Below are positions 1 to 21,384 of a stretch of DNA of 64,000 bases, piece after piece. This DNA comes from Alphaproteobacteria bacterium (GTDB lineage Bacteria > Pseudomonadota > Alphaproteobacteria > Micavibrionales > Micavibrionaceae). A program made the position numbers and the translations under genes. The number at the start of each line of letters is the position of its first letter. Positions within the stretch are counted from its first letter, which is position 1. The stretch is from positions 62,001 to 126,000 of the forward strand of contig JASMHE010000006.1 of NCBI GenBank assembly GCA_030750865.1, in the 5' to 3' direction. The notes under the pieces are model-generated. The model had not been told where the DNA came from and ran no database searches. It worked only from the letters and a program-made list of their open reading frames with translations.

Positions 1-863
1 TTCCACAAGACAGGCCATCCCGCAATTAACGGATGACGCCGCTGGAACGCGCTCACCTCAACCTCGACACCGCTATGACGTTTGACTTTCCAGAGCGCGT
101 AATCAACACCATTTTCAAATGTAACACTTGATTTCAGGATACGCAGCAACGCCACAAGCTTGCGCAAAGGGCGATGCGCACGCCGCCGCAATTTTCCTTC
201 GCCGCCGCGCATCTCTTTTTCGGCGCGCCACATATCAAACCGCAATGTCGCGGCCTGTTCATGCGCCGCAAAGATTTCAGCCGCCCGCCCTTCGGATTCG
301 CTGCGCATCTCATCAGCATAGGTTTGCTGCAACCCGTTAACCCAGAATGACCGCGCGCTTTCTTCGTCGCCGCTAAATGGTGCGGCCATTTTGAAGAAAC
401 GGTCAACGGCAGCCGTAATATTGCGTGCAATACGATCTGTCATCGCTTCGCTTTCGGCATAAACCAAACGGCAGGGCTGTGCAAAACGGGCCCAGACCTG
501 CGGCGTAAAACTTTTGCCACGGCAGGCTTTTTCGAATTGCGATACGCGCATCACATTATATTTACAGCGCAAGATACGTCCCTGATATTCAAATTCCGTA
601 TAAAAAACATTGGGAGGCAAAAAACTGCCCATCACAGACAGAAATAAACGCTTGCGAAACCCCTTATAACGATGCACCAGAACATGCACATCCCAGATAC
701 GGTCTTCGGCATCCCCTTGCCACAGACCGGAGCCATACAGCAAAATCGCCGCAACAGAATCGCGGTTATCCGCATTATACCGAATATGCTGCGCCAGTGC
801 GGTCACGGTCTGTGAAACCGGCACAGATAAATCATTCGCAATATGTGTTTCCAAATCAAGCAT
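1..863 (-). CDS. Tam41-like phosphatidate (or lipid-phosphate) cytidylyltransferase, 3' end cut by window edge
   Basis: The reading frame starts at an ATG (861-863) and stays open for 287 codons to the left edge, so the C-terminus is missing. Residues about 44-60 read LLYGSGLWQG followed by WDVHVLV. This matches the nucleotidyltransferase GSG...D-x-hydrophobic signature of Tam41, the mitochondrial CTP:phosphatidate cytidylyltransferase that makes CDP-diacylglycerol. Downstream, the GSFLPPNVFYTEF, GRILRCKYNVM and RIARNITAAVDRFF stretches align by eye with human TAMM41 segments. The gene begins 2 bp after the stop of the lipid kinase gene and is clearly in the same transcript. Inference: it activates the phosphorylated lipid made by that kinase with CTP, at the membrane face. 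The substrate (phosphatidate or ceramide-1-phosphate) is not decided by the sequence. Confidence 0.72.
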   Translation of the reverse strand, partial: MLDLETHIANDLSVPVSQTVTALAQHIRYNADNRDSVAAILLYGSGLWQGDAEDRIWDVHVLVHRYKGFRKRLFLSVMGSFLPPNVFYTEFEYQGRILRCKYNVMRVSQFEKACRGKSFTPQVWARFAQPCRLVYAESEAMTDRIARNITAAVDRFFKMAAPFSGDEESARSFWVNGLQQTYADEMRSESEGRAAEIFAAHEQAATLRFDMWRAEKEMRGGEGKLRRRAHRPLRKLVALLRILKSSVTFENGVDYALWKVKRHSGVEVEVSAFQRRHPLIAGWPVLW

Positions 864-865
864 CT

Positions 866-1849
866 TTATTCAAACTCATAAACCTGTAACGGGGTTCCCT
901 GTTCTATCTCAAGTTCGGTCTGTCCGTCAAAATCATATAATGCACCATCCAACGTCCAACTTGCGGAGAACTTTAGCGCGACTTTCTGGTCCGTTGCAAA
1001 ACTAAAAAAAGCAGACGACCCGTCTTGCGGTGTTTTCCCGCGCCAAAACGGTACAAGCGAGGATAATAAACGGTAATACGGCACGCCAAGCCCGCCAATA
1101 CAATATTGTTGTCTCGTCGCATGGGTTTTGATTCCAAGCAATAAACGCGGCAACGCCGTCACATAAAACAAAACGGCATCACTATCGCGCCATTTATAAT
1201 CTTCAAAACCATATTGCACTTCCACAGGATGCAAAACGGGGTCTTCGTAAATATGGCCGCGCAATAATTTTATAATCATCTTCCCGATTGTCAGGACATG
1301 CCCGATCGCGCCGCGCAGCCCTTTTTCATGATAGGTGCTGCGTGAATAGGAAATCGCTTTCGGGATACCGGCCGTTCCGAAAAAGAAACCGTAAATCGGT
1401 TTATCCGTGCCTTTGACCTGCACTTTCAAAACCGGGCGCGCCTTGCAATACGGCGCGAAATCAGACCATGACGATGCCTGCGATGCCCGCTTTAAAATCT
1501 GTTTCAAGCCGCGCAGCACAGACCGGCCGCTTCCGCGCATCATATGGGTCATGTTGGTTGTGCCGCCGGGTAAAAAAGCAAAGGACGGCTCCAGCCCCGC
1601 ATCAAACAAATCACCCCCGCGCAGCAATGTCAGACAATCATCAATCGTGCCGTCACCACCATTGATGACAATCATGTCCACCCGTTGTTCCCGGCATGCA
1701 GACAGCGCGTCATACAGCGCGTCGTGATCCGCCGTCACATAATGCGGCACATGCGGATAATCCTGCAAAACAGCGTCAAGCTTTTGCAAATGCGTTTTGT
1801 TCCATCCGCTATGCGGGTTCGAAATGACGGCAATGCGCGGCGCTGTCAT
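866..1849 (-). CDS. DAGK-family lipid kinase (diacylglycerol / ceramide / sphingoid kinase-like)
   Basis: The protein has 327 residues. The N-terminus AVISNPHSG is the usual start of the DAGK catalytic domain, NGGDGTIDDCL (about residues 64-74) is the GGDGT nucleotide loop, and LPGGTTNM follows in the position of the usual P-x-GTxN motif. The family phosphorylates diacylglycerol, sphingosine or ceramide at the membrane. The ATG at 1849 overlaps the upstream CDP-alcohol transferase stop by ATGA, which fixes the start; a longer reading to 2002 is only overlap. The Tam41-like gene follows after 2 bp. Inference: it makes the lipid phosphate that the Tam41-like enzyme then activates. Ceramide kinase CpgB of Caulobacter is also a DAGK-family protein, so ceramide is a real alternative substrate. 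Confidence 0.85.
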   Translation of the reverse strand: MTAPRIAVISNPHSGWNKTHLQKLDAVLQDYPHVPHYVTADHDALYDALSACREQRVDMIVINGGDGTIDDCLTLLRGGDLFDAGLEPSFAFLPGGTTNMTHMMRGSGRSVLRGLKQILKRASQASSWSDFAPYCKARPVLKVQVKGTDKPIYGFFFGTAGIPKAISYSRSTYHEKGLRGAIGHVLTIGKMIIKLLRGHIYEDPVLHPVEVQYGFEDYKWRDSDAVLFYVTALPRLLLGIKTHATRQQYCIGGLGVPYYRLLSSLVPFWRGKTPQDGSSAFFSFATDQKVALKFSASWTLDGALYDFDGQTELEIEQGTPLQVYEFE

Positions 1850-2958
1850 CCGTTTTTCTCCAGCATCCACGATGTAACGGGGCGTCCACGCACACGACAC
1901 CATTCCGCCTGTGCGATTTGTACCAGATGCATAACAAAGGTTGCGCCGCCCCATGCCGTAATAATCAACAAGCCGATATCCGGCACAGCCAGCACCCAAC
2001 AAAATGTTAGCACAATCATATTCGGATTCCGGCGCGAACTGATCAACCGGAACACCGAGTCAAAACGGCGCCAGACATGGAGATGACAGCCATAGCGCGC
2101 AATAAAATAGCCCTCGCACAACCGGCCCAGCACATAAAAGGCAAACATCGCCCATAAAACAGGCGCAAGCCAGCCATCCGGCAACGCATGTCCGGCAACG
2201 CCCAAACCAAAGCCCCATGCGATATACCAAAATGGCGGATGTACCAGATCAATACCATGATCGAAAATATTACCGAACGGCGATGATGTCAGGGTCACGC
2301 GTGCAAGCTTGCCATCCACCGTATCCAGAAATGTCATGATCCAGCCTGCCAGCAAACCCCAGCCAAAATGTCCCTGCCAAAACAGCCACAACGCGGCAAA
2401 CATCAGGATCGCGCCAACCGTTGTCACCATATTGGGCGACAAGCGCGCTGCCGCACAAAGCCGCGTGACATGAAACGCAGGCACAGGCCAGACATATTTT
2501 GTGACGATATCGGTCACCCCCTTGTAAGAGCCCTGATAAAGCCGCCACTCAACAGCGCGGATATTATCCGCCGTCACGATCAGCGCAAACGGGTCTTCTT
2601 TTTTACGGAGCTGATCACGGTACGCATCGCCGCATTCTTCGGGCCGCGCAAGCGGCACATTATGCGGCGCATCGCCCTGCCCCAACAGCCAGAACCGTGC
2701 CGCCTCGGCCATATCGGCCGGAACAGTTGCCGCAAGCGGCACGCCATGTGCATCGGCCAGCAAAATATCTTTTTGGCACAGATCACGCAAAACAGCTTCG
2801 TCATAGACCGCATCGCCGCGCAAAATAACGATATGCCCGTCACGCTGTTCATATTTTTGCAAAATTTTACGACTGCGCTGTGACGGCGACATGCCCCAAA
2901 TGCGCAAATCCGTATCATGATTGATAATATCAATGGTATCGTGTGTGTCGTGGCTCAC
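1846..2958 (-). CDS. CDP-alcohol phosphatidyltransferase with N-terminal nucleotidyltransferase-like extension
   Basis: With the GTG at 2958 the protein has 370 residues. The signature D-x2-DG-x2-AR-x8-G-x3-D-x3-D is complete: D212, D215, G216, A219, R220, G229, D233, D237. Hydrophobic segments around it fit a six-helix CDP-alcohol phosphotransferase. Residues about 1-140 are soluble and carry an LRGDAVYDEAVL stretch like the metal-binding region of sugar/inositol-phosphate nucleotidyltransferases. The layout recalls the fused CTP:inositol-phosphate cytidylyltransferase/DIPP synthases, but no Gly-rich NTP loop is visible, so the extension may be inactive. A GTG start with AAGGG about 10 bp upstream was preferred because the upstream ATG (3042) would overlap the divergent phosphoesterase start. 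It transfers a phospho-alcohol between CDP and a second alcohol; the substrates are unknown. Confidence 0.82.
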   Translation of the reverse strand: MSHDTHDTIDIINHDTDLRIWGMSPSQRSRKILQKYEQRDGHIVILRGDAVYDEAVLRDLCQKDILLADAHGVPLAATVPADMAEAARFWLLGQGDAPHNVPLARPEECGDAYRDQLRKKEDPFALIVTADNIRAVEWRLYQGSYKGVTDIVTKYVWPVPAFHVTRLCAAARLSPNMVTTVGAILMFAALWLFWQGHFGWGLLAGWIMTFLDTVDGKLARVTLTSSPFGNIFDHGIDLVHPPFWYIAWGFGLGVAGHALPDGWLAPVLWAMFAFYVLGRLCEGYFIARYGCHLHVWRRFDSVFRLISSRRNPNMIVLTFCWVLAVPDIGLLIITAWGGATFVMHLVQIAQAEWCRVRGRPVTSWMLEKNG

Positions 2959-3034: not shown

Positions 3035-3922
3035 ATGAGCAAAACACGGTTCGCACATATTTCGGATCTTCACATGGCACCGCTGCCCGCATTGCAGCTA
3101 ACCGAGTGGAATATTAAGCGCATTCTAGGCTATGTCTCATGGCATAGCAAACGGAAGACCATGCACTGTGCACATGTTTTAGACGCCTTGAAACATGATC
3201 TAAAACGGCAAGCCCCCGATCATATCTGCGTGACGGGCGACCTTGTCAATCTGGGACTGGAACAGGAATATAAAAACAGCGCCTTATTGCTGCGCAGCCT
3301 CGGTCCGGCCAAGAATATCAGCATCATCCCCGGTAATCACGAAGCGTATGGCCGTCATTATAACGATTATATCAAACGCTATTGGTCCTCGTGGTTAAAA
3401 GACGATATGAATATCGCGGCCGATACGTTTCCTTATGTCCATATACGCGGCGACCATGCCTTTATCGGCATTTCCAGCGCCATCCCGACATGGCCGTTCA
3501 TGGCAAACGGATATGTCAGCGAAGAACAGTGCAACGCACTGGGCGAAATACTGGTGGAACTGGAAGCGCAAAATAAAACCCGCGTGATCATGATCCATCA
3601 TCCGCCGATCAGCGGACTGATACAGCCGCGCAAATCCCTGTCAAAACCCTATGCCTTTTTGGATATGGTGCGGGAATTCGGCGCAGAGCTGATTTTGCAC
3701 GGCCACGCCCACAAAGACTTTGATTACACAATCGAGGGCATGGATAAACCGATCCGTGTTTTGGGGGTCGGCAGTGCGTCTTACGATAATGAAGACATGC
3801 AGAAAAAAGGCCATTACCACATGATTACACTTGATGGACACGGCACAAATGTGCAACTTTCCATAGAGCATCGCCATTACAACATCGCAAAAGATATGTT
3901 CGAAGAAGGGAAACAGGCGTGA
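3035..3922 (+). CDS. Calcineurin-like metallophosphoesterase
   Basis: The protein has 295 residues and all five class motifs: D11-x-H13, G68-D69, GNHE 100-103, H188-H189 and GHAH 223-226. No signal peptide or membrane segment is seen, so it is probably cytoplasmic. The family (CpdA, LpxH and related two-metal phosphodiesterases) cleaves phosphomonoesters, cyclic nucleotides or nucleotide-lipid pyrophosphates. It is divergent from the CDP-alcohol transferase and overlaps the next gene (GTGA), so it is translationally coupled to a cytidylyltransferase. Inference from context: it may dephosphorylate a lipid intermediate or recycle a CDP-type product. The substrate cannot be read from the motifs. 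Confidence 0.85.
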   Translation: MSKTRFAHISDLHMAPLPALQLTEWNIKRILGYVSWHSKRKTMHCAHVLDALKHDLKRQAPDHICVTGDLVNLGLEQEYKNSALLLRSLGPAKNISIIPGNHEAYGRHYNDYIKRYWSSWLKDDMNIAADTFPYVHIRGDHAFIGISSAIPTWPFMANGYVSEEQCNALGEILVELEAQNKTRVIMIHHPPISGLIQPRKSLSKPYAFLDMVREFGAELILHGHAHKDFDYTIEGMDKPIRVLGVGSASYDNEDMQKKGHYHMITLDGHGTNVQLSIEHRHYNIAKDMFEEGKQA

Positions 3923-4686
3923 AGACGATTATTCTCAGTGCCGGTCAGGGAAAAAGATTATCGCCGCTAACCGATAATCTGCCCAAATGCCTGCTGGAAG
4001 TGCAACCATCTGTAACAATTCTGGAATGGCAAATGATGCAGTTGGACGCCGCCGGCGTCAGCGAAATTGTTATCGTCACAGGGTTTGAAGCCCAGCGCGT
4101 CGAAGACGCCATCGCAAATTTCCGCAAGACATACGCGCCCAAATGCACAATCCGCACCCTGTATAATCCGTTTTACAAAGTGGCCGATAATATCGGTAGT
4201 GTCTGGCTGGCCAAAGAAGAAATGGATGGCCCGTTCATGATTTTGAACGGTGACACATTGTTGACGACACAAACAGTCACGCGCTTATTAAATCAGGGCG
4301 ATATGCCGATTACACTGACCATCGCACAAAAAGACCAGTATGATTCCGATGATATGAAGGTCAGTCTGGACGGCGCGCAATTACGCCGCGTCGGGAAAAC
4401 ACTGGCCGCTGATATCGTGCATGGCGAGTCGATCGGCTTTATGAAATTCAGCGGCAACGGATCGGCCCTGTTCCGCGAGACTGTTGAAAAAGCCCTGCAT
4501 TCACAAGAAAACCTCAAACGCTGGTATTTGTCGATTATCGACGACATCGCGCAAAGCGGCGATCATGTCGGCACCGTCATTGCACCGCAATCAGAATGGT
4601 GCGAGGTTGATTTCCCCGTTGATCATAAAAAGGCCTGCGAAAAAGTGCAGGAATGGACAGAGTCACCGGTTGAAGCGATAGTCTGA
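3919..4686 (+). CDS. LicC-like phospho-alcohol cytidylyltransferase (NTP_transferase family)
   Basis: The protein has 255 residues. Its start MKTIILSAGQGKRLSPLT carries the G-x-G-x-R-L NTP loop, followed by PKCLLEV with the catalytic Lys, and NGDTLL (about residues 113-118) with the metal-binding Asp. The stretch NPFYKVADNIGSVWLA is typical of phosphocholine cytidylyltransferase-like (LicC) members more than of sugar-nucleotide enzymes. The GTG start at 3919 overlaps the phosphoesterase stop. Inference: it activates a small phospho-alcohol with CTP for the CDP-alcohol phosphotransferase encoded next door. It ends tail-to-tail, overlapping the DUF2147 gene by 24 bp. Confidence 0.8.
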   Translation: MKTIILSAGQGKRLSPLTDNLPKCLLEVQPSVTILEWQMMQLDAAGVSEIVIVTGFEAQRVEDAIANFRKTYAPKCTIRTLYNPFYKVADNIGSVWLAKEEMDGPFMILNGDTLLTTQTVTRLLNQGDMPITLTIAQKDQYDSDDMKVSLDGAQLRRVGKTLAADIVHGESIGFMKFSGNGSALFRETVEKALHSQENLKRWYLSIIDDIAQSGDHVGTVIAPQSEWCEVDFPVDHKKACEKVQEWTESPVEAIV

Positions 4687-5310
4687 GTGCCGCGCACTTT
4701 CCGGTTTCTTCTGCACATGTTCTGTTTCTATCCGCGGCGGCGGAGATGGTTTGCTGTCATCCGCAGTTTTCAGGCCTTTCTCGAACGTACGTTCCAGCGC
4801 ACGCTGCGCAGCAATCACCCGTTCATCGCACCCCGTATAACCGTCTTTTGAAACACGGGTCAGATATGTTGTCTTGCCCAGTGCCGGAAATCCCAGATAA
4901 CCGCGCAGATCAATTCGCTCCGCATCGACCTTTTCCAGCTTGGCCCGAAAGACCTTGCCGTCATCTGCCTTATAAATAAGCCCGTCACGCCACACATTGT
5001 CTTGATCCGGTTTTAAATCATATAAAACGCGCACGCCGCATAATGGCTGCCCCCGCAACGCCGGATCGGGGTTTTTACTATCAATTTGTTCAACCTGCGG
5101 ATCAAGCCAATAAATCCAGCCACAGCGCTGTGTACGATCCCGTCCGCAAGCATCAATACGCACCACAACATCTTTTTTCTTTGTCAGCCAGTATCCGACA
5201 ATATCACTATCATCCGCACGGGCTGTCTTGGCAAACGCCGTGTTGCCTGCCGATACGGCCACCATCATCAGCATCAGCATCAGCACAAACAAATAAACAG
5301 AACGCATCAT
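4663..5310 (-). CDS. DUF2147 secreted protein
   Basis: The protein has 215 residues. An N-terminal signal peptide of Met/Leu/Val-rich residues ends near AFA-KT (about residue 28). The mature part begins DIVGYWLTKKKDVVVRI and carries GWIYWLDP and two Cys pairs (Cys54/Cys62 region and Cys93), as in DUF2147 proteins, which are small periplasmic proteins of unknown function with a lipocalin-like look. The C-terminal 45 residues are charged and Pro-rich and are probably disordered. It overlaps the upstream nucleotidyltransferase stop (ATGA), so it is cotranscribed with the lipid genes. No enzymatic role can be assigned. Confidence 0.75.
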   Translation of the reverse strand: MMRSVYLFVLMLMLMMVAVSAGNTAFAKTARADDSDIVGYWLTKKKDVVVRIDACGRDRTQRCGWIYWLDPQVEQIDSKNPDPALRGQPLCGVRVLYDLKPDQDNVWRDGLIYKADDGKVFRAKLEKVDAERIDLRGYLGFPALGKTTYLTRVSKDGYTGCDERVIAAQRALERTFEKGLKTADDSKPSPPPRIETEHVQKKPESARHSDYRFNR

Positions 5311-6131
5311 GACATGGCCTCTTGCAGTAAAATTGTTTTCACCAAATCATAATCCTCCTGTTTATCGACATCAATCGCGGCGCGCGGATTTGCAACGCGT
5401 ACAGCACCGACATTCACACCGGTCAGTGTTGCTATCTTGCGGCACAGCACATCCAGCGTCAGGCGCTTTGTCATATATTTTACAAGGATCACAGGCCCCA
5501 GCATTTTCGCCATGCGAAGCGGCGATTTCCGCATATGCTGAATCTCTTGCCAGAAAGCCGGTAACGATAACGCATTTTTCGTGCCGAAGAAGAACAGATT
5601 GCAACCGCTGATCATCCCGTCCTTGAACGCCAGCTTTGTGCGCATGGTTTTCGGATATGAACGCAGCACATCATGCAAAAACGTAAAACCGAACGTCGCC
5701 TCGGCCTGACTTTGTACGGATTGTGTATAAAAATCGGTCAGGATACTCGCATTAAGCAGCGGATGGTCCGCCGTTGTCACAAGCACGGGCTTGAAATCAT
5801 CCTTATAATGCTTGGCCAGAAATGCAAACGCCTTTTCCAGACTGTCAACAATCGTGTCTTCGGGTTCGACCAGATGGATATTTTCCCGTCCTTCCGTCAA
5901 CATGAAATCGATAAACAAATCTGTTTCACCGATAATCACAATGCTGCGGCATATATCGGCATTCTGTGCCGCATCCATGACATAGGATATTAACGGCTGG
6001 CCGTTCATCGGGATCAACCCTTTTGAATCAACATTATGCATATGCAAAAACGCATCACGCCGATCGCGGCGTCCGGCCAATATAATCAGGTCACTCTGCG
6101 GGTACTGTTGTGTATCGTCTTTTGTGTCCAT
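5307..6131 (-). CDS. MobA-like nucleotidyltransferase family protein
   Basis: With the ATG at 6131 the protein has 274 residues. The N-terminal LIILAGRRDRRDAFL is a variant NTP loop: the usual GGxGxR glycines are replaced by Arg/Asp. It is followed by KGLIPMNGQPLISYVM, the expected catalytic Lys and homing segment, and VTTADHPLL, a metal-binding TADxP motif. This variant loop occurs in a subgroup of MobA-like transferases, so activity is likely but the substrate is unknown. It starts 4 bp after the acyltransferase stop; an alternative ATG lies at 6161. Inference: it provides a second activated head group or sugar for the lipid made by this operon. Confidence 0.72.
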   Translation of the reverse strand: MDTKDDTQQYPQSDLIILAGRRDRRDAFLHMHNVDSKGLIPMNGQPLISYVMDAAQNADICRSIVIIGETDLFIDFMLTEGRENIHLVEPEDTIVDSLEKAFAFLAKHYKDDFKPVLVTTADHPLLNASILTDFYTQSVQSQAEATFGFTFLHDVLRSYPKTMRTKLAFKDGMISGCNLFFFGTKNALSLPAFWQEIQHMRKSPLRMAKMLGPVILVKYMTKRLTLDVLCRKIATLTGVNVGAVRVANPRAAIDVDKQEDYDLVKTILLQEAMS

Positions 6132-6135
6132 ATGG

Positions 6136-7269
6136 TTACTGTACACCGATCTGTTTTTCATACAAGCGGTAACGCCGTGATATCCGTCCGCCGAACATTT
6201 CAATCATACGGCACATGGCTGTATTGTCTTCCAGAATCCATGACATTTCCAATGTTGTATAGCCGCGCTTGATCACTTCGTCCTGCACACGCTGCACCAG
6301 ATACGCCGATAACGCGGCCGATAACGCCGTTCCCTTATATTTTTTGGCCGTCCCCATTAATAAAACACGGGCGGTGTTGATATGCCCGCCCTTCAGCCGC
6401 ATCAGTAACTTCAGAAATCCGAAAGGAAACAGCTTTCCGTCCAGACCGTGTAGCGCCTGATTCACATCCGGCAAGGCAACGATCATCGCCGCAGGTTCTC
6501 CGTCAACAAATGCAATACGGGCCATATCCGGCACAATAATGGGGCGGAGTGATGCCCCCATATGCCCGATTTCCTCATCATCCATCGGCACAAAACCCCA
6601 ATTGTCCGACCAGGCATCATTGAACAAGGTCATAATAATATCCAGATCATCACGGAAATGCGTCATACGGACCGGACGTTCGCTCAAGCCATCCATAGCG
6701 GCGGCCTGTTTAACCATATAAGATGCCGCACGCGGGAAATCACGGGTTGCATCCACATCATAGGCCAGCAAATCTTTAGCCTTTTCGAACCCGTCATCGA
6801 CCAGAACATCTTTGTAAAACGGCTTGGCATAGTTCATCATCAGGCGCGGGGGATGTTCAAACCCGTCAACCAACAAACCGGATTCATCGTTCGTGGAAAA
6901 ACTATACGGTCCGGCAATACGGCGCATGCCTTTTTCGGTCAAGTGCGTTTCCGCCCGTTTCATCAGTGCCTGTATTGTTTGTGAATCCTGACCTTCTAGA
7001 AAGCCAAAATGACCCGTTTTTGTTGCAATGGCCTGTTTATTATGATGATCAATATGCACAGCAATGCGCCCGGATGGCCGGTCATGGAAATCATACGCCA
7101 CAAACAAGCGCACATCGGCATGGTTGAAAAACGGATTTTTCGGCCCAAAATGCGCCTTCATTTCTATGTCCGGCCGGAACACATAATGATCAATATTGTC
7201 ATACAGCACATGCGGCACGCGCACAAAATCGGCCAGATCCTTTTTGGTTTCAACCGCCTTAATCCGCAT
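6136..7269 (-). CDS. GNAT-fold N-acyltransferase of the bacterial ceramide synthase (bCerS)/YghO-like family
   Basis: The protein has 377 residues. The N-terminal half contains FVRVPHVLY, NPFFNHADVRLFVAY and DESGLLVDGFEHPP; the C-terminal half has a GNAT-like end with LLMGTAKKYKGTALS and LEMSWILEDNTAM. This arrangement is what I recognise from the family that includes E. coli YghO and the Caulobacter ceramide synthase bCerS, which N-acylates a sphingoid base using acyl-CoA. The start ATG at 7269 has GGAAAA just upstream and overlaps the hydroxylase stop by 11 bp. The neighbours (lipid kinase, hydroxylase, LptFG) fit a lipid substrate. Uncertain: generic GNAT amine acetylation is still possible, and no serine palmitoyltransferase is in the window. 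Confidence 0.68.
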   Translation of the reverse strand: MRIKAVETKKDLADFVRVPHVLYDNIDHYVFRPDIEMKAHFGPKNPFFNHADVRLFVAYDFHDRPSGRIAVHIDHHNKQAIATKTGHFGFLEGQDSQTIQALMKRAETHLTEKGMRRIAGPYSFSTNDESGLLVDGFEHPPRLMMNYAKPFYKDVLVDDGFEKAKDLLAYDVDATRDFPRAASYMVKQAAAMDGLSERPVRMTHFRDDLDIIMTLFNDAWSDNWGFVPMDDEEIGHMGASLRPIIVPDMARIAFVDGEPAAMIVALPDVNQALHGLDGKLFPFGFLKLLMRLKGGHINTARVLLMGTAKKYKGTALSAALSAYLVQRVQDEVIKRGYTTLEMSWILEDNTAMCRMIEMFGGRISRRYRLYEKQIGVQ

Positions 7270-8050
7270 CTTTTTTCCAATATTGTCGTTGTCCGATGCC
7301 TTTTTCAATTGCGTCTTCTTCGGAAATATCTTTGGTATGCCGCGCCACCCACGGGAATAATTTTACAATCTTTCCGGTATAGCCCAGATTAAAAACAGTC
7401 GGGCTCTTTTTCACCGCGCGCGGATCGTGGTTAAATGTGCCCAATAATTTATCGGGCACAAAATTGGTAATACCGTAATTATGATTTTCATCATGAAAGT
7501 GATGTTGCAAGTGCAGCTTTTTCATCTTTTTCAGGAAGTTGCTTTTCGGTGTGTATTTCAAATGCTGGATACAATGACAAAATTCATAAAAACACGTCAC
7601 GAACAAACCTGTCGAAAGGGCCGCAAACGCGCACGGCAACCCGCCAATCAGATAGCCGATCGGCGAGATCAAAAACAAGATCGTCGGCAATGTTGTATAA
7701 AGCGCGCCAAACAGAACCTTCAAATCATGCGGATCGCGATGATGATCGAAATGAATGCGCTTCCATATTCTGGCCGTCAATGGTGATTTATACAAGTAAG
7801 ACCCATGCAGAACAAAACGGTGCAACAGATACCAGATCAGCGGGTAAAGCATAATCACCACCACCACAGACAAGGCCACCTGCCACCATGATGTTTCACC
7901 TTCATACACGGCCTTTCCGGCCAGAAACCCGAAACACAGCCCCAGCACGATATAAACCTGAATCGCAAGATACATGAAATAGGCGATCCATAATTCGCCC
8001 AGTGTCATTTTATCCAGCCGGTAATCTTTTTTCCAAAAATTCAGATCCAT
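7259..8050 (-). CDS. Membrane fatty-acid/sterol hydroxylase-type di-iron oxygenase
   Basis: The protein has 263 residues with four hydrophobic segments. It carries the histidine clusters of the fatty acid hydroxylase superfamily: HRFVLH, HFDHH, FCHCIQH and HLQHH followed by HDENHN. These ligate two irons on the cytoplasmic side and support hydroxylation or desaturation of an acyl chain or sphingoid base. The start (ATG 8050, with AAGGA 7 bp upstream) was chosen over a long overlap with lptG. It lies between lptG and the ceramide-synthase-like gene on one transcript. Inference: it hydroxylates the acyl or sphingoid chain of the lipid made here. Confidence 0.85.
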   Translation of the reverse strand: MDLNFWKKDYRLDKMTLGELWIAYFMYLAIQVYIVLGLCFGFLAGKAVYEGETSWWQVALSVVVVIMLYPLIWYLLHRFVLHGSYLYKSPLTARIWKRIHFDHHRDPHDLKVLFGALYTTLPTILFLISPIGYLIGGLPCAFAALSTGLFVTCFYEFCHCIQHLKYTPKSNFLKKMKKLHLQHHFHDENHNYGITNFVPDKLLGTFNHDPRAVKKSPTVFNLGYTGKIVKLFPWVARHTKDISEEDAIEKGIGQRQYWKKDAD

Positions 8051-8097
8051 CATTTTATCCTTCGGCAATGCGGCATCTTTACAACCCTTTGTCGTTT

Positions 8098-9240
8098 TTA
8101 TGACCGTTCCTGCATTAACGCAAGCCATGCCATGATAATCACGGCCGTAAGCGGCGCAGCGAAACTTGCGACAAAAACCGGAAGCTGCGCACTTTCCGCC
8201 AACGCGAATAAGATACGCTCTGCTATAAAATAGAAAAACCCGCATAACGTCAAAAGAAATCCGAATGACAATAGCGACCCGCGCCGTGATATGCGAAGTG
8301 CAATCGGCAGGGCAATCAACACCATAATCAGACAGGCCAGCGGCTGTGATATTTTTTGCAAGACCCATAACTTGTAAATATAGGCAGGCTTGCCCTGCGC
8401 GGCGATATAATCACGCTGCGATAACAGATCGAATATTCCGAATTCTTCGGCCTTATGCTTTTGCGTTTCGGCCCCGTAAGAAAACACAGATGGCTGCAAC
8501 GGCAACGGAATAGTCAGCTCTTCGCCGTCACCGATGTCAATCTCGGCGACCTGCGGAACATCTTCGTTATTGCTGATATGCGCCCGCCCGAAATCCGGCT
8601 CGCGCACTTGCGACAATTTCCAGTCATCCCCCATATAAAGCGCCTGTTCGGCCAGAATATAGCGCACCAACATGCCATTTTCATCGCGTTCCAGATATCG
8701 CAGACCTTCCAGATATTTGCCGTCCGCGCTTGCGCTTTCAACATAGAAAAGGTGATTGCCTTTTTTAAACCAGATCGCTTTCATCGGCGCAGCATTCTTG
8801 CCGATTTGCGGCGTGCCCTGATAATCCAACGATTTCCACTGGTTCAGTAAAACAGCGCTTTGCGGCGCAACCATATTGGCCAGCGAGAATTGCAAGACGG
8901 CAAACAGCCCGCCTGCAATCAACAAAAAGCCCGCAATACGGTACAGCGGAAACCCCGCTGCGCGCAGTGCAATAATTTCCTGTGTGTTGACACGTTTTGA
9001 CAACACCATCAGGCAAGACAGCAATACCGCAATCGGAATGGCCGTCACCGCGATCAACGGCAAACGCAGTCCGGCATAGATCAACAAGGCCGACAAGATA
9101 TGATCCTGAAACGCCAACACATCTTCGGCATTGGCCATCACATCAAATAACAAAAGCAGCATCGTCATGGCAAAGACGATGAACAGCCCGCGTGATAAAA
9201 CAGGCACAAAGAAATAACGCGCCATAATCTTATTCATCAT
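8098..9240 (-). CDS. lptG: LptG-type permease of the LptF/LptG (YjgQ) family
   Basis: The protein has 380 residues with three N-terminal and three C-terminal membrane helices around a periplasmic jelly-roll domain (about residues 125-280). The region after helix 2 reads LLSCLMVLSKRVNTQEIIALRAAG, the conserved coupling helix that contacts LptB. With LptF and the LptB ATPase it extracts LPS from the inner membrane into the Lpt bridge. Its ATG overlaps the lptF stop (ATGA). In most alphaproteobacteria lptG is followed by lptD-surA-pdxA; here a fatty-acid hydroxylase and a ceramide-synthase-like gene follow. It may therefore be a second, lipid-dedicated LptG, which is inference only. Confidence 0.88.
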   Translation of the reverse strand: MMNKIMARYFFVPVLSRGLFIVFAMTMLLLLFDVMANAEDVLAFQDHILSALLIYAGLRLPLIAVTAIPIAVLLSCLMVLSKRVNTQEIIALRAAGFPLYRIAGFLLIAGGLFAVLQFSLANMVAPQSAVLLNQWKSLDYQGTPQIGKNAAPMKAIWFKKGNHLFYVESASADGKYLEGLRYLERDENGMLVRYILAEQALYMGDDWKLSQVREPDFGRAHISNNEDVPQVAEIDIGDGEELTIPLPLQPSVFSYGAETQKHKAEEFGIFDLLSQRDYIAAQGKPAYIYKLWVLQKISQPLACLIMVLIALPIALRISRRGSLLSFGFLLTLCGFFYFIAERILFALAESAQLPVFVASFAAPLTAVIIMAWLALMQERS

Positions 9241-10460
9241 GGGGCACCTCTCACGGTGCGTGATATCAGATAAAGCGCATCAGACAGCGCTTCTTTCACC
9301 GTCACCCCCGCAAGTCGCAGGAACAAAATCACAGATACAGACGCAATAACGGTAAATGGAAACCATACGGCCAGCGCAGGTGAAACAACGTCATTGCGCA
9401 CCATCGTTTCGCCGATACCCAGAATTTTTTCATACAGAATTAAAATCAGAACACCCAGCACAATACCGGTCGCCTTGCCAGACCGCCCCGATCCGATCAA
9501 AGAAAGCGGCAAAGCCAGAAAAGCCAGCACAGGCAAAGATAACACACTGACAAGGCGGGCATGCAGTTCGGCCTGCATCTTACCGCGTTCAATATCGTGG
9601 TTTACATTATCCGGTCCGCCGGAAAACAGCTCCGGCAATGTCATTTCCCGTTCATCCTGCCCGCGCACACCATAGGGTTCATGCGGCGGCACAGGTAAAC
9701 GCCACGGATAGGCATTCACCGATAAAAGCGAGGGATCTTCACCGGGTTTTTCCTGAATAATCTGACCATCCTGTAACAAAATCGTCAGCCGCTTATCCGC
9801 GCCTTTGATGTCTTTCAACTCTTTGGGCGATACAACAATCGCCTGCGAGGCCAAAATGAACGTACGGCGTTTGCCATCTGCCGCATAATCACCGTCATTG
9901 AGCGTATTATCGTCCTTTTGCACATCAGCAAAAAAGCCGAACAAGACACTGCCATCGCGGCTGACACGATCGGCCCGCAAGGTAATATCATCGCCGATTT
10001 TCTGGAACACGCCCGGCTTGACGCGCAATGTCTGATAGCCCGCCGACACATTCTGTAATTCCGCTCTGTAGGAATAACGACCGATCGGTTGACCGAACGC
10101 CACAATTAAAAACATGACAATCATCATCACCAACGAAAATAAAAGCGCCGGACGAATAAGTAATCCATAAGGCATGCCCGCAGATTGCATCACAACCAGT
10201 TCGGATTGTTCGTGCATCTTACGAAAGGCAAGCATCACCGATAAAAACAAGGCCGCCGGAATTGCAAGCCCCAGATAATGCGGCTGTAAATATGCCAACA
10301 GCGATATGGCCGCGCCGAACGACGCGCCTTCACCGACAACGACATCAATAATGCGTAAAAACCGCTCCAGCGATAAAGCCAGCAGAATGACGATCACCGT
10401 CAGGGCAAAAGGCACCGTCAGGTTGCGCAACAAATATCGGGATAATGTATGCATCGCCAT
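9237..10460 (-). CDS. lptF: LptF-type permease of the LptF/LptG (YjgP) family
   Basis: The protein has 407 residues. The start HTLSRYLLRNLTVPF and the helix-loop SVMLAFRKMHEQSELVVMQSAGMP (coupling helix) are typical of LptF. A periplasmic beta-rich domain spans about residues 140-290, and three more helices follow. It partners with the LptG encoded next to it and with an LptB ATPase that is not in this window. The ATG at 10460 is followed by a second ATG two codons later; either could be used. It lies 15 bp downstream of the HIT gene on the same strand. Confidence 0.88.
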   Translation of the reverse strand: MAMHTLSRYLLRNLTVPFALTVIVILLALSLERFLRIIDVVVGEGASFGAAISLLAYLQPHYLGLAIPAALFLSVMLAFRKMHEQSELVVMQSAGMPYGLLIRPALLFSLVMMIVMFLIVAFGQPIGRYSYRAELQNVSAGYQTLRVKPGVFQKIGDDITLRADRVSRDGSVLFGFFADVQKDDNTLNDGDYAADGKRRTFILASQAIVVSPKELKDIKGADKRLTILLQDGQIIQEKPGEDPSLLSVNAYPWRLPVPPHEPYGVRGQDEREMTLPELFSGGPDNVNHDIERGKMQAELHARLVSVLSLPVLAFLALPLSLIGSGRSGKATGIVLGVLILILYEKILGIGETMVRNDVVSPALAVWFPFTVIASVSVILFLRLAGVTVKEALSDALYLISRTVRGAP

Positions 10461-10971: not shown

Positions 10972-12282
10972 ATGGCGAAAGCGCAAAACACACAGTCCAA
11001 AATGTGGAAACGTCCGTTCAAAAATGCAGGTATCTTGCTGTTGGGGCGGGGAACGCAGGGGATATTGTCTCTGGTCTATCTGGCGCTTGCCGCGCGCACA
11101 CTCGGCGCAGCCGGTTTCGGGAACCTTGTTATCATTCACAGTCTGGTTCTGACCGCAGCGCAGCTCATCCGGTTCCAGACATGGCAAGCCGTGATGCGTT
11201 ATGGTGATGACGCACTCAAGCAAAACGACATCAAAACATTTCAGGACATCAACCTGTTCGCCGTCTTTCTGGATTTCATCAGTGCCGTGATTTGTGCAGG
11301 CGGCCTGATTTTATTTCTGAATTATTGTTACGGCATCACGGGCCTGCAAGCCGAAATCGAACCGCTGGCCAAACTGTATGCCCTCGGCAGTATCTTTGTC
11401 ATGCTCGGCTCTGCGCCACTTGGATATCTGCGTCTTGCCGACCGTCACGACCTTATCGCGATCCAGACAACCGTTGAGCCCGCCATCCGTTTTATCGGGG
11501 CGATCATTCTGTTCTTTATCAACGGCCCGCTGGAAGCATTTTTGATTTTATGGTTTGCCGCGATGACTGCAAGCCGTATCACATTAATGGTCATCGCCGT
11601 GCGGACGATGCGGAAAGAAAATCTCTGGTCCGACTTCACGGTGCGCCCTGCAAAAATTCTGCATCCTGTTTCCGGAATCTGGCGCTATGTCTGCGGCACG
11701 CAACTGACATCAACATTAAATATCACAAACGGTCCGATCGGCACGATTCTCGCCGGTGCGTTGCTGGGCGCACCCGCCGCCGGTATCTTCCGGGTGGCAC
11801 AGCAATTTGCCGATATTCTGATTAAACCCGTCAATAAATTACTTGTTCCCGCGATCTATACCGACATGACACAATCCGCAGGAAACAGAACAATTTTGAA
11901 AGATTTGTCTGTCAAAACAGCCTTATTTGCCGGCGCGCCGTCACTGGGTATCTTTATCATTCTGGTTGCCGCCGGCAAAGTCCTGATTACAGCCACGGTC
12001 GGCACGGAATATCTGGGCGCTTACACCCCGATGATTATTCTGGCACTGTCCGGCATTGCGATGGTGGCCACATTTCCGCTGGAACCATTATTAATCACCG
12101 CCGGAAAAGTCCGCGAAACGGCGCTAATCCGTTTTCTGACCGTACTGATTTATTTTCTCGGTTTCCTTGCACTCGCCCCGCTTTTCGGGATCACAGGCGC
12201 GGCGACGGCCACAGCCATTTCAACCGTCTGCACGGCACTGCTGTTCTGGCTGTCGGGTGCACTCTATCTGAAAGAAAAATAA
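10972..12282 (+). CDS. Wzx-type polysaccharide flippase (MOP superfamily)
   Basis: The protein has 436 residues with about 12 hydrophobic segments. The N-terminal pattern GILLLGRGTQGILSLVYLALAARTLG followed by AAGFGNLVI is the standard oligosaccharide-flippase (RfbX/Wzx) opening. Such proteins move lipid-linked oligosaccharides across the inner membrane. A CDP-glycerol-type transferase gene follows 6 bp later, so the two probably act on one surface polymer. It is divergent from the HIT-lptFG unit. Confidence 0.85.
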   Translation: MAKAQNTQSKMWKRPFKNAGILLLGRGTQGILSLVYLALAARTLGAAGFGNLVIIHSLVLTAAQLIRFQTWQAVMRYGDDALKQNDIKTFQDINLFAVFLDFISAVICAGGLILFLNYCYGITGLQAEIEPLAKLYALGSIFVMLGSAPLGYLRLADRHDLIAIQTTVEPAIRFIGAIILFFINGPLEAFLILWFAAMTASRITLMVIAVRTMRKENLWSDFTVRPAKILHPVSGIWRYVCGTQLTSTLNITNGPIGTILAGALLGAPAAGIFRVAQQFADILIKPVNKLLVPAIYTDMTQSAGNRTILKDLSVKTALFAGAPSLGIFIILVAAGKVLITATVGTEYLGAYTPMIILALSGIAMVATFPLEPLLITAGKVRETALIRFLTVLIYFLGFLALAPLFGITGAATATAISTVCTALLFWLSGALYLKEK

Positions 12283-12288
12283 TCCGTC

Positions 12289-13425
12289 ATGATGCATATC
12301 GGTTTTCTTCTCAACCATTATACAGGGCATCAGGCCTATCACGTCTTGCCGATTGCCTATGCCTTATCGGGCAACAAAGACGTCAAGGTCAGCATCATCG
12401 TGTCCAGCACTGCGCTGCATAAAATGGCACGTGACCTCGGCGATGTCTGGGGCGCGCATCGTTGCCACATTATCAAAGCCCGCGTACCGTTTTGGGTTGA
12501 TTTGATTGATCCGCTCACGCGGCAGTTTATCTTCCTGAAAAAGAAAGCGGTCCTTGACCACAATACGGCGCTTTTCAAAACGCTCGACGCACTTGTCGTA
12601 CCGGAGAAAACCTCACTATCCCTGAAGAAGAATAAAGCGCTAGCACATCTGAAAATGGTCCGCATTCGTCATGGCGCGGGTGATCGCACCACAGGATTGG
12701 ATGACAGCAACAAAGCGTTCGACCTTATTCTGACATCGGGACACAAAATGCAAGAACGCCTGATGAGCGATCAGAACATCGCCAAAGAAAAACTTCCAAT
12801 CATCGGTTATCCGAAATTTGATATGATTGATAAACTGCCGCCGCCGCGCCCTTTGTTCAATAATAACAAAAAAACCGTGCTGTATAATCCGCATTTCCGG
12901 CGCGATGAGTCATCCTGGGTCAAAATGGGCATGGATGTGCTGCACTTTTTCAAAGACAGTAATGATTACAATCTCATTTTCGCGCCGCATATCCTGCTAT
13001 ATCAACGGGCTCTGCGGCACGGGGCAAAAAACCTCCATGCCTTTAAGAATTGCCCGAACATCCATATTGACACCGGCAGCGATGCGTTGATCGACATGAC
13101 CTACACACGGCAAACCGACATCTATCTTGGCGATGTCAGCAGTCAAATTTACGAATTTCTACGCCAGCCCCGCCCCTGTCTGTTTTTAAACGCGCACCAC
13201 ATCCATGACTGGCAGAACAAACAGACATTCAAACATTGGCAGTGCGGTGATGTCTGCGAGTCGATAGACGATCTGGAACACGCACTGACACAGATAGACA
13301 CATGGAAAAATCGCTATTTACACACTCAAAAACAGCTGCTTGACGACACATTCAGCCAGAAAGGCACTGCAAGCCGTAACGCGGCGCGGGCAATCGTGAA
13401 TTATTTAGAAATCACACAAGGTTAG
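12289..13425 (+). CDS. CDP-glycerol glycerophosphotransferase-like (TagB/TagF family) protein
   Basis: The protein has 378 residues. The N-terminal half begins IGFLLNHYTGHQAYHVLPIAYAL, and the C-terminal half has a GT-B-like layout: VLYNPHFRRDESSW (in the place of the TagF YAPTWR segment), NLIFAPHI, and DIYLGDVSSQIYEFL (in the place of TDYSSV). The family transfers glycerol-phosphate from CDP-glycerol to an acceptor, although many Gram-negative members have unknown donors. No membrane segment is seen. It is coupled to the upstream flippase. Capsule or surface-glycan modification is likely; a link to the CTP-using lipid locus is possible but not shown. Confidence 0.65.
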   Translation: MMHIGFLLNHYTGHQAYHVLPIAYALSGNKDVKVSIIVSSTALHKMARDLGDVWGAHRCHIIKARVPFWVDLIDPLTRQFIFLKKKAVLDHNTALFKTLDALVVPEKTSLSLKKNKALAHLKMVRIRHGAGDRTTGLDDSNKAFDLILTSGHKMQERLMSDQNIAKEKLPIIGYPKFDMIDKLPPPRPLFNNNKKTVLYNPHFRRDESSWVKMGMDVLHFFKDSNDYNLIFAPHILLYQRALRHGAKNLHAFKNCPNIHIDTGSDALIDMTYTRQTDIYLGDVSSQIYEFLRQPRPCLFLNAHHIHDWQNKQTFKHWQCGDVCESIDDLEHALTQIDTWKNRYLHTQKQLLDDTFSQKGTASRNAARAIVNYLEITQG

Positions 13426-16460: not shown

Positions 16461-16967
16461 TTAACCGACCGGAACAAGTGCATAAAAAATATGTCGTCCG
16501 ATCACCGCAACAGGACGTTCGCCTTGCGTCCAATAGGGATAGGTTCCCGCCGCATGATAATGCGTTGCCGATGCGGTGATATCAGGGATATCGGTATAAA
16601 TCGCGCGGCGCGCGATGCGCACGGCTGTTGCAAAATGAATATCTGCGTCATCGACCGTCTTCATCTTGTTGAAATTCGGATCGTCTGTATTCCACGCGCT
16701 GAACTGATAGGGTTTACGGCAAATGTCTTCAATCGTATTCCCCCACCAAAATCCGCCATCATGAGATTCGGATACCCGTAAACGATTCACGATAACATTG
16801 GCCACCGCCGTCATGCCTGCGCTGCCTTCACCACGGGCTTCGCCCCATATGGTGCGTGCCAACACATCAACCTCTTTTTCTTTTTGTGCAGCAATACGCT
16901 GCGCAAGGCGTTGCTCTGTTTCTGCTACATGCACCACATTCTCGTCATGCGGGATTAACTGTTTCAT
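16461..16967 (-). CDS. SleB/CwlJ-type cell wall hydrolase (phage endolysin)
   Basis: With the ATG at 16967 (GGGAG 9 bp upstream) the protein has 168 residues. The Hydrolase_2 core begins VLARTIWGEARGEG, where the catalytic Glu lies in GEARGE, followed by AVANVIVNRL, the QFSAWN motif and ATHYHAAGTYPYW near the end. This is the SleB family of lytic transglycosylase/amidase-like peptidoglycan hydrolases, often used as endolysin in alphaproteobacterial phages. There is no signal peptide, so it depends on the holin downstream. A second ATG at 16985 is possible but has a worse ribosome binding site. Confidence 0.85.
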   Translation of the reverse strand: MKQLIPHDENVVHVAETEQRLAQRIAAQKEKEVDVLARTIWGEARGEGSAGMTAVANVIVNRLRVSESHDGGFWWGNTIEDICRKPYQFSAWNTDDPNFNKMKTVDDADIHFATAVRIARRAIYTDIPDITASATHYHAAGTYPYWTQGERPVAVIGRHIFYALVPVG

Positions 16968-17017
16968 TTGTAATTCTCCCTTCATTGTCTGTTTCGATCA
17001 TTGTGTATTTCGCGTGA

Positions 17018-17344
17018 TTATTGCGTATTGTTCTTTGCCCGCAGGGCTTCTGTTTTCATTGCCGTTTTATCGAGCTTGCTTTCAATCCGCAGCAAATGGT
17101 TAATCAGCCGTATTTCAAGCTCTTTCATATCACTGATGGACGCATAGCTTTTGGCCGCTTCCAGTTTGAAAGAAAACTGCGCCTCCCGCATTTGTGTATT
17201 GCGCGTATCAAGCAATTCACGCAAGCGTGTCATCGCCGTTTCGTGATCACGGCGCGTACGCCATATCAGAAAAAACAAACTGCTCAGCGCCGGCAAATCG
17301 ACAATTGTGATCCACCAGATTAAATCTTCAGAAAATCCGAACAT
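17018..17344 (-). CDS. Small phage membrane protein with coiled coil (i-spanin-like?)
   Basis: The protein has 108 residues. One N-terminal membrane helix (about residues 8-27: LIWWITIVDLPALSSLFFLIW) is followed by a long amphipathic, charged coiled coil of heptads to the end. The ATG at 17344 has GAGAGAGG 5 bp upstream; it starts 11 bp after the terL stop. Size, topology and position between terL and the endolysin fit an inner-membrane spanin (T7 gene 18.5 sits next to 19), but no o-spanin reading was found embedded in it. The function is inferred from position only. Confidence 0.6.
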   Translation of the reverse strand: MFGFSEDLIWWITIVDLPALSSLFFLIWRTRRDHETAMTRLRELLDTRNTQMREAQFSFKLEAAKSYASISDMKELEIRLINHLLRIESKLDKTAMKTEALRAKNNTQ

Positions 17345-17355
17345 AAGAACCTCTC

Positions 17356-18849
17356 TCAAACATCAAAATCGCTATTGGCTTCGTGCATATCACGCCCCTT
17401 GCGCCAAACCTGTTGTCCTGTTGTGTAATAACGCTTTAAACGGATCGGTTCTGCCGCCAATGCGCCCGCAACCGCGTCCAGACCATCATCGTGACCGCCC
17501 TTTTGCCCCGGTGACCACTCCTGCATTTCTGTCAAAAACGGCGTTGATCGCACCTGCGCATTCACATGCAAAGCCCGCGCAGCCATCACCGCATCAAAGG
17601 CTTCCATAATGCGTAAATCTTTGGCTTGGGAGCTGACTTTCTCGACCACCGCACACGGTATATTTTGCTGCGCCATTTCCCGCCGCAAAATATTTGGCAA
17701 AAAACGACCGATCCCGTTAATTTCAATACAAACTGACGGCAAATAAAACCGCTTTGCCAGCGCCGCAACAATACGGCATTGCTGTGTTGCTTCATCATCG
17801 CTGTGGCATATGTCCGCCTCTTCTGTAATGCGGATATATTCCACATGCTGCAGCCAGTAATCTCCGTCTTCATCCGTATATAAAATGGCCAGCACGCTGG
17901 CATCTCCGTCACGTTTACCAAACGCAGGGTCCCACCACGCACTTGCAGACACCAGTCTTTTGTCCTCGATATATAACGCGCGCAAGGCATCATCTTTGAT
18001 GATGGGCGCATCATAAAAACGCAGATTTTCGGCATCCAGATAACCGTCTGCAATATTGACGGGCACCAGCATCATCTGGCTGGTAAACTTATTCGGCCCG
18101 CTCGTCCGGCGCATCATTGCAATATCGTCTTCGCTGAAGCGCTCCGGCCATGCGCTGTTGCCGTGCCGGTCCAAAATCGGCAACGTAAACCGTGAAAATC
18201 CGTCTAAAAACGGCGTTTCTTCACCAATTTCATGACGCGGCACATCAGCATACAGCGTAAACCAGCTATGGGGCGTGCCGACGTAAAGCTGCGTTCCACC
18301 AGGCACAAGCACATAGGCTGTTTCCCCCAAGCGATCCCGCAAGTCCTGACGCTTTTGCGCCGTATCGCATGTTTTCGGCACCTCGACATCATCACAAATG
18401 ATGATATCCGCGCGACTGCCGGTAATATTCGACGATATGCCCTTTGCCAACATGGACGGATCGCGCAATTCTTTATCGCGCTTGATGGTAAAACGGTCGG
18501 CACCCCACTGGTCTGCGCGTTCCGGCTTTAAATGCGCCGTGAAAGGATGACGTTCGATAATCCGCTTTACATTGCGCACCATTTTGCGGGCCAGCATCGC
18601 ATCAGCCGCAAGCACCAGAATACGGCACGCAGGGCGCTGATACAGAATCCACGCCGCATATAGCCCCACAATCGTCGATTTTCCGCAGGACCGGAATGCC
18701 TGTAACAACAGCCGCGTTTCTTCTTCCGCCCGCCATGCTTCTTCCAGCCAGTCCGCAATATCGAAATGCACATCAGGCGTTTTTTGTCGCTGCATTTGAT
18801 TCCACAATGAAATAAAAAGCTTCAGATCAATTTTATCCGTCATCATCAT
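17356..18849 (-). CDS. terL: Phage terminase large subunit (TerL)
   Basis: The protein has 497 residues. The N-terminal ATPase has an FRSCGKST Walker A (residues 52-59) and an ADIIICDD Walker B (Asp153/Asp154). The C-terminal RNase-H-like nuclease has WWDPAFG, EINGIGRFLPNIL and HDDGLDAVAGAL with its conserved acidic residues. This is the DNA-packaging motor and headful or site-specific nuclease of a T7/N4-type podovirus. Its start overlaps the end of the small gene upstream (putative TerS) by 17 bp; three ATGs in a row leave the exact start open. All catalytic motifs are intact, although no portal gene is present for it to dock on. Confidence 0.92.
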   Translation of the reverse strand: MMMTDKIDLKLFISLWNQMQRQKTPDVHFDIADWLEEAWRAEEETRLLLQAFRSCGKSTIVGLYAAWILYQRPACRILVLAADAMLARKMVRNVKRIIERHPFTAHLKPERADQWGADRFTIKRDKELRDPSMLAKGISSNITGSRADIIICDDVEVPKTCDTAQKRQDLRDRLGETAYVLVPGGTQLYVGTPHSWFTLYADVPRHEIGEETPFLDGFSRFTLPILDRHGNSAWPERFSEDDIAMMRRTSGPNKFTSQMMLVPVNIADGYLDAENLRFYDAPIIKDDALRALYIEDKRLVSASAWWDPAFGKRDGDASVLAILYTDEDGDYWLQHVEYIRITEEADICHSDDEATQQCRIVAALAKRFYLPSVCIEINGIGRFLPNILRREMAQQNIPCAVVEKVSSQAKDLRIMEAFDAVMAARALHVNAQVRSTPFLTEMQEWSPGQKGGHDDGLDAVAGALAAEPIRLKRYYTTGQQVWRKGRDMHEANSDFDV

Positions 18850-19204
18850 CTACTGTATTTGCGTTACCTCGGCCTGCCTGCTGTTTAGAATATTGATCGG
18901 ATTTGCTTCGGTATGTTTTCAATTCTTGCTGCGCTTCGCGCATCATCGCGGCCAAAACCACCTGATGATTGGCATCCCCTGATTCTGCATCCGGCAGCTC
19001 AGCCCAGCGGGCCAGTTTAATTAAAAGTTCGATATGGGCGATGGCCACTTTGCATGCACTGTGATGGGCTGAAAATTCTTTGGCTTCGGCGGGTGCATCC
19101 TGCCGCGAAAAACGGTAATAGGATGTCAAGGCACGCGAAATCGCATCCGGCAGGAAATCGGAAATTTGCTGCCGCGTTTGTTGTTCGATGTGTTTCTGGG
19201 ACAT
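18833..19204 (-). CDS. Putative terminase small subunit
   Basis: The protein has 123 residues and is mainly helical. The ATG at 19204 has AAGGA 6 bp upstream; longer readings only run into the tail-spike gene. It is placed directly before and overlapping terL, where small terminases lie in T7-like genomes (gene 18 before 19). The N-terminus QQTRQQISDFLPDAISRAL could form the helical DNA-recognition part, and the last 25 residues are polar (a run of Asp at the end). No signature motif identifies the family, so the call rests on size, composition and synteny. Confidence 0.6.
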   Translation of the reverse strand: MSQKHIEQQTRQQISDFLPDAISRALTSYYRFSRQDAPAEAKEFSAHHSACKVAIAHIELLIKLARWAELPDAESGDANHQVVLAAMMREAQQELKTYRSKSDQYSKQQAGRGNANTVDDDDG

Positions 19205-19277
19205 GGATATCCTTTTCAAAATAGATGTACGCGTAAACAAGAAAGAGGGATACACGACACGTACACCCCTCTTTTTT

Positions 19278-21311: not shown

Positions 21312-21384
21312 GGATATCTCCTTTATAATAGAATGGGTTAGATTTTTATCTTGTGATCCGAACACGGTTTTTGGTAAAATTTCC

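Follow-up and report, generated by a model that had tools for sequence, protein, structure and literature searches.

CpgC is a Tam41-type nucleotidyltransferase coupled to a lipid kinase, and probably makes CDP-ceramide

Ceramide phosphoglycerate synthesis and the Tam41 family

The ceramide phosphoglycerate (CPG) pathway has been described for alpha-, beta- and gamma-proteobacteria, and the closest described counterpart of the gene analysed here is CC_1161 (CCNA_01219) of Caulobacter crescentus, encoding CpgC. Published work has shown that its neighbour CC_1160 (CpgB), a lipid kinase, acts on ceramide (PMC12275187, PMC11324152). CC_1161 is needed in Caulobacter for conversion of ceramide-1-phosphate to CPG; its mutant lacks both CPG and CPG2 and shows a moderate accumulation of ceramide, and both lipids return on complementation. 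Apart from the ceramide genes, no gene of the Caulobacter cluster other than CC_1160 and CC_1161 is known to be required for CPG. The CDP-alcohol transferase CC_1159 is dispensable for the first headgroup but required for the second, its proposed substrate there being CDP-glycerate supplied by CpgD. The latter is a CTP:phosphoglycerate cytidylyltransferase, and CPG forms without it.

Papers of 2025-2026 describe CpgC as acting by an unidentified mechanism. A paper of 2024 pointed to a CDP-DAG-synthase InterPro domain in CC_1161, and suggested that the protein makes a nucleotide-activated ceramide to which a further enzyme attaches glycerate; its authors also kept open direct attachment of glycerate by CC_1161. 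Thus CDP-ceramide is already a published proposal for CC_1161, and the same idea in the original prediction for the present gene is not new. In the literature that we searched, CDP-ceramide is absent, and we found no assay of any CpgC member. The results below bear on how bacteria attach headgroups to ceramide, and they open the chemistry of CpgC to a direct test.

Three groups of enzyme provide the frame for comparison. Tam41/Mmp37 (PF09139; crystal structures 6ig2, 6ig4 and 7ecd) shares with CpgC a nucleotidyltransferase domain and a second domain, together with the YGS motif, an aspartate, a lysine and an R-x-x-x-P motif. However, the sequences are only 12-15% identical, the C-terminus of CpgC does not align, and the context is sphingolipid rather than cardiolipin synthesis. 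Both mitochondrial and Firmicutes Tam41 are CDP-DAG synthases. CdsA (PF01148) carries out the chemistry expected of CpgC, converting CTP and a lipid phosphate to a CDP-lipid, but has an unrelated fold. CpgD is a cytidylyltransferase of the same lipid pathway, yet it is of the sugar-phosphate nucleotidyltransferase type and serves the second headgroup.

The cpgC gene and its cluster

We analysed a window of 64,000 nucleotides, corresponding to positions 62001-126000 of contig 6 in a genome of 2.19 Mb; coordinates below refer to the window unless stated otherwise. A gene for a CpgC-type, Tam41-like nucleotidyltransferase occupies positions 1-863 on the minus strand (open reading frame 3-863), truncated by the edge of the window. 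The missing 3′ end was recovered from the contig, where the final nine codons and the stop lie just past the edge; the full-length gene (L001:11973-12863, minus strand) encodes 296 amino acids. Among 385 genomes of the Alphaproteobacteria, approximately 42 contain a relative that is 30-41% identical over its full length, and a relative is encoded in 575 of 594 candidate stretches of GTDB contigs, so this is not a chance open reading frame. Two further matches (G113 and G141) are marginal, with E values of about 1e-3 and an internal stop, and were excluded from the co-occurrence count given below.

The prediction placed the start of cpgC 2 bp beyond a DAGK-family kinase, and the gene itself downstream of a CDP-alcohol transferase; both the parts and their coordinates were confirmed. 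The kinase is of the CpgB type (866-1849, minus strand, 327 amino acids, ATG at 1849; PF00781, E = 1.6e-13). Its stop codon at 866-868 is separated by 2 bp from the cpgC ATG at 861-863, while its own ATG at 1847-1849 overlaps the stop codon (1846-1848) of the CDP-alcohol phosphatidyltransferase. The last is of the CpgA (CC_1159) type (1846-2892, minus strand; PF01066, E = 6.7e-10), with weak similarity to the DIPP synthase model NF041135. The likely start is the ATG at 2892, giving 348 amino acids, a choice based in part on homologue coverage.

The other side of cpgC is occupied by a serine palmitoyltransferase gene (spt), convergent with it and only a few bases away, whose product scores 604 bits against an equivalog cut-off of 500. 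Ahead of spt are genes for an acyl carrier protein (AcpR), a CerR-like dehydrogenase and an AMP-binding acyl ligase. On the kinase side, two genes on the plus strand encode a calcineurin-like metallophosphoesterase resembling CC_1158 (3035-3922; PF00149, E = 1e-17), with relatives in 43 of 80 CpgC loci, and the counterpart of CpgD (3919-4686; PF00483, E = 1.6e-11), whose best solved relative is the CTP:phosphocholine cytidylyltransferase 1jyk (E = 2.9e-11). These are followed on the minus strand by a MobA/CofC-like nucleotidyltransferase resembling CC_1153 (5307-6203; PF12804, E = 1.1e-9, with a weak CofC match; 44 of 80 loci), and by a GNAT-related candidate for the bacterial ceramide synthase CerS (6136-7308; weak PF00583; 49 of 80 loci) in the position of CC_1154. 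Next is a membrane protein of the fatty acid hydroxylase family (7259-8053, minus strand, start estimated; PF04116, E = 7.4e-18; 32 of 80 loci), possibly hydroxylating ceramide. A second LptF/LptG permease pair (8098-10460, comprising 8098-9240 and 9237-10460, minus strand; PF03739) probably serves sphingolipid export; the other pair of the genome is on contig 7. Between the CpgD-like and CofC-like genes there is also a DUF2147 protein (4663-5310, minus strand, E = 4.4e-27).

Thus cpgC is translationally coupled to the lipid kinase within a complete cluster for ceramide synthesis and export. In Caulobacter the order Spt, CpgC, kinase, CDP-alcohol transferase is the same, and the interval CC_1152-CC_1165 likewise contains CpgD-, CofC-, phosphoesterase-, CerS- and LptF2/G2-type genes; the present cluster differs in its extra fatty acid hydroxylase and in other details of arrangement. 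Lying adjacent to both spt and the kinase, the gene is the counterpart of CC_1161, and on gene content and order an apparent orthologue of it. The cluster also bears upon the kinase, for which ceramide had been raised as a conditional substrate. Given the serine palmitoyltransferase and the AcpR, CerR and CerS candidates, together with the match to the Caulobacter kinase, ceramide is indeed its likely substrate.

CpgC is a Tam41-type nucleotidyltransferase

The relationship to Tam41 is not apparent from the protein alone. PF09139 finds no match to CpgC up to an E value of 10, nor to any other protein of its genome, and searches of Pfam, NCBIfam and PDB sequences with the single protein gave nothing useful. 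Had the analysis ended there, the prediction would have failed by its own standard, which named lack of a significant Tam41 profile score as grounds for refutation. We therefore turned to searches at the level of the family, collecting homologues from the 385 genomes of the class and from GTDB contigs and aligning 67 of them. PF09139 is matched by 19 of these 67, which are 29-41% identical to the target, with a best E value of 2.6e-9; one of them (L024, 30% identical to the target) scores 28.8 bits and so passes the curated cut-off of 24. In the other direction, a hidden Markov model of the 67 sequences reaches the crystallised Firmicutes Tam41 (7ecd) with E = 0.0021, and the alignment pairs the YGS motif, D58, K101 in its KY strand, and R126 and P130 of the R-x-x-x-P motif. 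A smaller profile, built from 31 sequences, had found no Tam41 among PDB entries. Across the 385 genomes PF09139 gives one weak match only, in a genome with a CpgC homologue at the same place, and it is consequently a poor tool for the CpgC branch. Direct scoring having given no hit, it was the homologues and the fold that established the relationship.

The fold is clear. The AlphaFold2 model of CpgC has a mean pLDDT of 92.7, and its best Foldseek matches in the PDB are Tam41 proteins, with E values from 9.5e-8 (7ecd) to 1.9e-6. When the model was overlaid on Tam41 structures, VIA gave Z values of 17.9 (219 residues, 3.0 Å) and, against SpTam41, 15.3. The next fold is that of the aminoglycoside nucleotidyltransferases, with Z = 7.8 at most. 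The alignment extends to residue 249, past the nucleotidyltransferase domain, as expected for the Tam41 fold with its additional winged helix domain.

The key residues follow the same pattern. D58, K101, R126 and P130 are invariant in all 67 homologues. D58 aligns with the Tam41 aspartate and is the single conserved aspartate of catalytic type after the GS motif. Of the three acidic residues that belong to the fold, Tam41 is reported to retain only one, so a single aspartate is the expected pattern and not a loss; loss of the catalytic aspartates had been named as the observation that would count against a Tam41 assignment. The prediction had also recognised the protein by a GSG motif. CpgC does contain YGSG, but across the family the third position (G46) is mostly cysteine.

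CpgC is therefore a Tam41-type nucleotidyltransferase, with the invariant aspartate of the family and the second Tam41 domain. The homology originally proposed is borne out by the fold, by the family profile and by the PF09139 matches of the homologues. We regard Tam41 membership and the ceramide phosphoglycerate setting, taken jointly, as very likely.

Beyond residue 249 there is a strongly conserved C-terminal region that lies outside the Tam41 alignment. The last 73 residues carry a net charge of +14 and include several that are invariant in the 67-sequence alignment. Tam41 binds membranes through a basic amphipathic C-terminal helix, and by analogy the C-terminus of CpgC may act in the same manner.

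Distribution of cpgC and the proposed reaction

How closely is cpgC tied to sphingolipid synthesis? Serine palmitoyltransferase is present in 41 of the 42 genomes that carry cpgC, compared with 8 of the 343 others (Fisher P = 6e-46, a nominal value because the sampled genomes are related). This co-occurrence speaks for a substrate derived from ceramide. In a set of 80 CpgC loci that did not contain the Caulobacter one, the kinase is found in 73, and in 70 it lies directly upstream on the same strand. Where full flanks are available (42 loci), the kinase is present in 40, CpgA in 25 and CpgD in 18, and 17 have neither CpgA nor CpgD. Thus the kinase-CpgC pair forms a stable core, whereas the presence of CpgA and CpgD varies between loci.

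Comparing this genome (G000) with others sampled from its own family, the Micavibrionaceae (G001-G036), we find the gene in the one other member of its genus, and it is absent from the remaining 35. The cluster is thus sporadic in the family, reflecting transfer or repeated loss.

CpgC and most of the cluster are also present in many bins of Nitrospirota and in some labelled Deltaproteobacteria/Desulfobulbaceae, where contamination of the bins is possible. These bins, which fall outside the alpha-, beta- and gamma-proteobacteria, are L053, L057, L058, L062, L064, L065, L083, L084, L088, L085 and L098.

The best explanation of these observations is that CpgC is a CTP:ceramide-1-phosphate cytidylyltransferase making CDP-ceramide, a reading that we consider probable. 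AasR, AcpR, Spt, CerS and CerR would make dihydroceramide, which CpgB would phosphorylate to ceramide-1-phosphate. At the membrane CpgC would then bind CTP-Mg and ceramide-1-phosphate and transfer CMP, generating CDP-ceramide and pyrophosphate. A separate phosphotransferase would exchange CMP for glycerate or phosphoglycerate to give ceramide phosphoglycerate, CpgD and CpgA would attach a further phosphoglycerate, and export of the lipid to the outer membrane would be aided by the second LptF/LptG pair.

Which enzyme might use the product of CpgC? The original prediction combined the kinase, CpgC and the adjoining CDP-alcohol transferase into one full pathway. The coupling of cpgC to the kinase is supported, but the inclusion of the third member is not, with CC_1159 being dispensable for the first headgroup and a clear CpgA-type protein missing from 18 of the 42 carrier genomes of the class. 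As CpgA is so often missing beside CpgC, the adjoining transferase is unlikely to be the enzyme that generally takes over what CpgC makes. This agrees with Caulobacter genetics, where the CDP-alcohol transferase serves the second headgroup. We sought an additional conserved transferase by clustering the unassigned open reading frames of the CpgC loci, and this returned only AcpR and unrelated or shadow frames. In several carriers that lack CpgA, the PF01066 proteins number just two and, judged by their length and score, are probably PgsA and PssA. The genome of the window has only two as well, CpgA and another that is probably PgsA, so no PssA of this family is evident.

A rival scheme dispenses with a separate transferase: CpgC would carry out the attachment of glycerate or phosphoglycerate to ceramide-1-phosphate on its own, via a bound CDP-ceramide or a phosphoryl intermediate. 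Kinase and CpgC occur without a clear CpgA in those 18 genomes, and without either CpgA or CpgD in 17 of the 42 full loci; only CC_1160 and CC_1161 are known to be needed for CPG beyond the ceramide genes; and CpgC has its conserved C-terminus past residue 249. Direct attachment was, moreover, one of the proposals made for CC_1161 in 2024. Yet PgsA or PssA, which are ordinary phospholipid transferases, could supply the second step. We know of no enzyme of the nucleotidyltransferase fold that catalyses both steps, which counts further against the scheme, and we consider it unlikely.

The precedent of the characterised Tam41 proteins, including that of Firmicutes, would make CpgC an ordinary CDP-DAG synthase acting on phosphatidate and supplying phospholipids. 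However, the genome carries its own CdsA, so the supply of CDP-DAG is already covered, and this argues against a housekeeping role of that kind. Serine palmitoyltransferase accompanies the gene in 41 of 42 carriers, the gene sits in a sphingolipid cluster, and it is phosphosphingolipids that are lost in the Caulobacter CC_1161 mutant. The CDP-DAG role is thus very doubtful. It is just as improbable that CpgC acts on some other acceptor, such as glycerate or another lipid phosphate, or that its nucleotide is not CTP, given that CTP and a lipid phosphate are the substrates of the closest family to have been characterised, and that CpgD already makes CDP-glycerate and is dispensable for CPG.

We therefore return to CDP-ceramide, to which both the placement in Tam41 and the kinase-CpgC core point, and which can be tested with one assay. 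In its wider form, the reading is that a widespread bacterial branch of Tam41 makes CDP-ceramide as the committed intermediate of phosphosphingolipid synthesis, handed to PgsA, PssA or another enzyme where CpgA is lacking; to this we lean only slightly. If it is true, the Tam41 family would have a second class of lipid substrate, and this would help to explain how some Gram-negative bacteria produce anionic sphingolipids able to stand in for LPS.

Near the cluster there is a gene for a TagF/TarF-like glycerophosphotransferase (12289-13425, plus strand; PF04464, E = 7.7e-10), adjoining one for a Wzx/MATE-like flippase (10972-12282, plus strand). Relatives of the glycerophosphotransferase occur at CpgC loci in three species of Acetobacter and in one bin each of Opitutaceae and Nevskia (E = 1e-62 to 1e-76), and on that account the protein may add or extend a CDP-activated headgroup. 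Further along, there is perhaps a prophage region at 16461-21365 on the minus strand, where open reading frames look, on inspection by eye, like genes for the large subunit of a phage terminase, for a cell-wall hydrolase and for a tail protein resembling pectate lyase.
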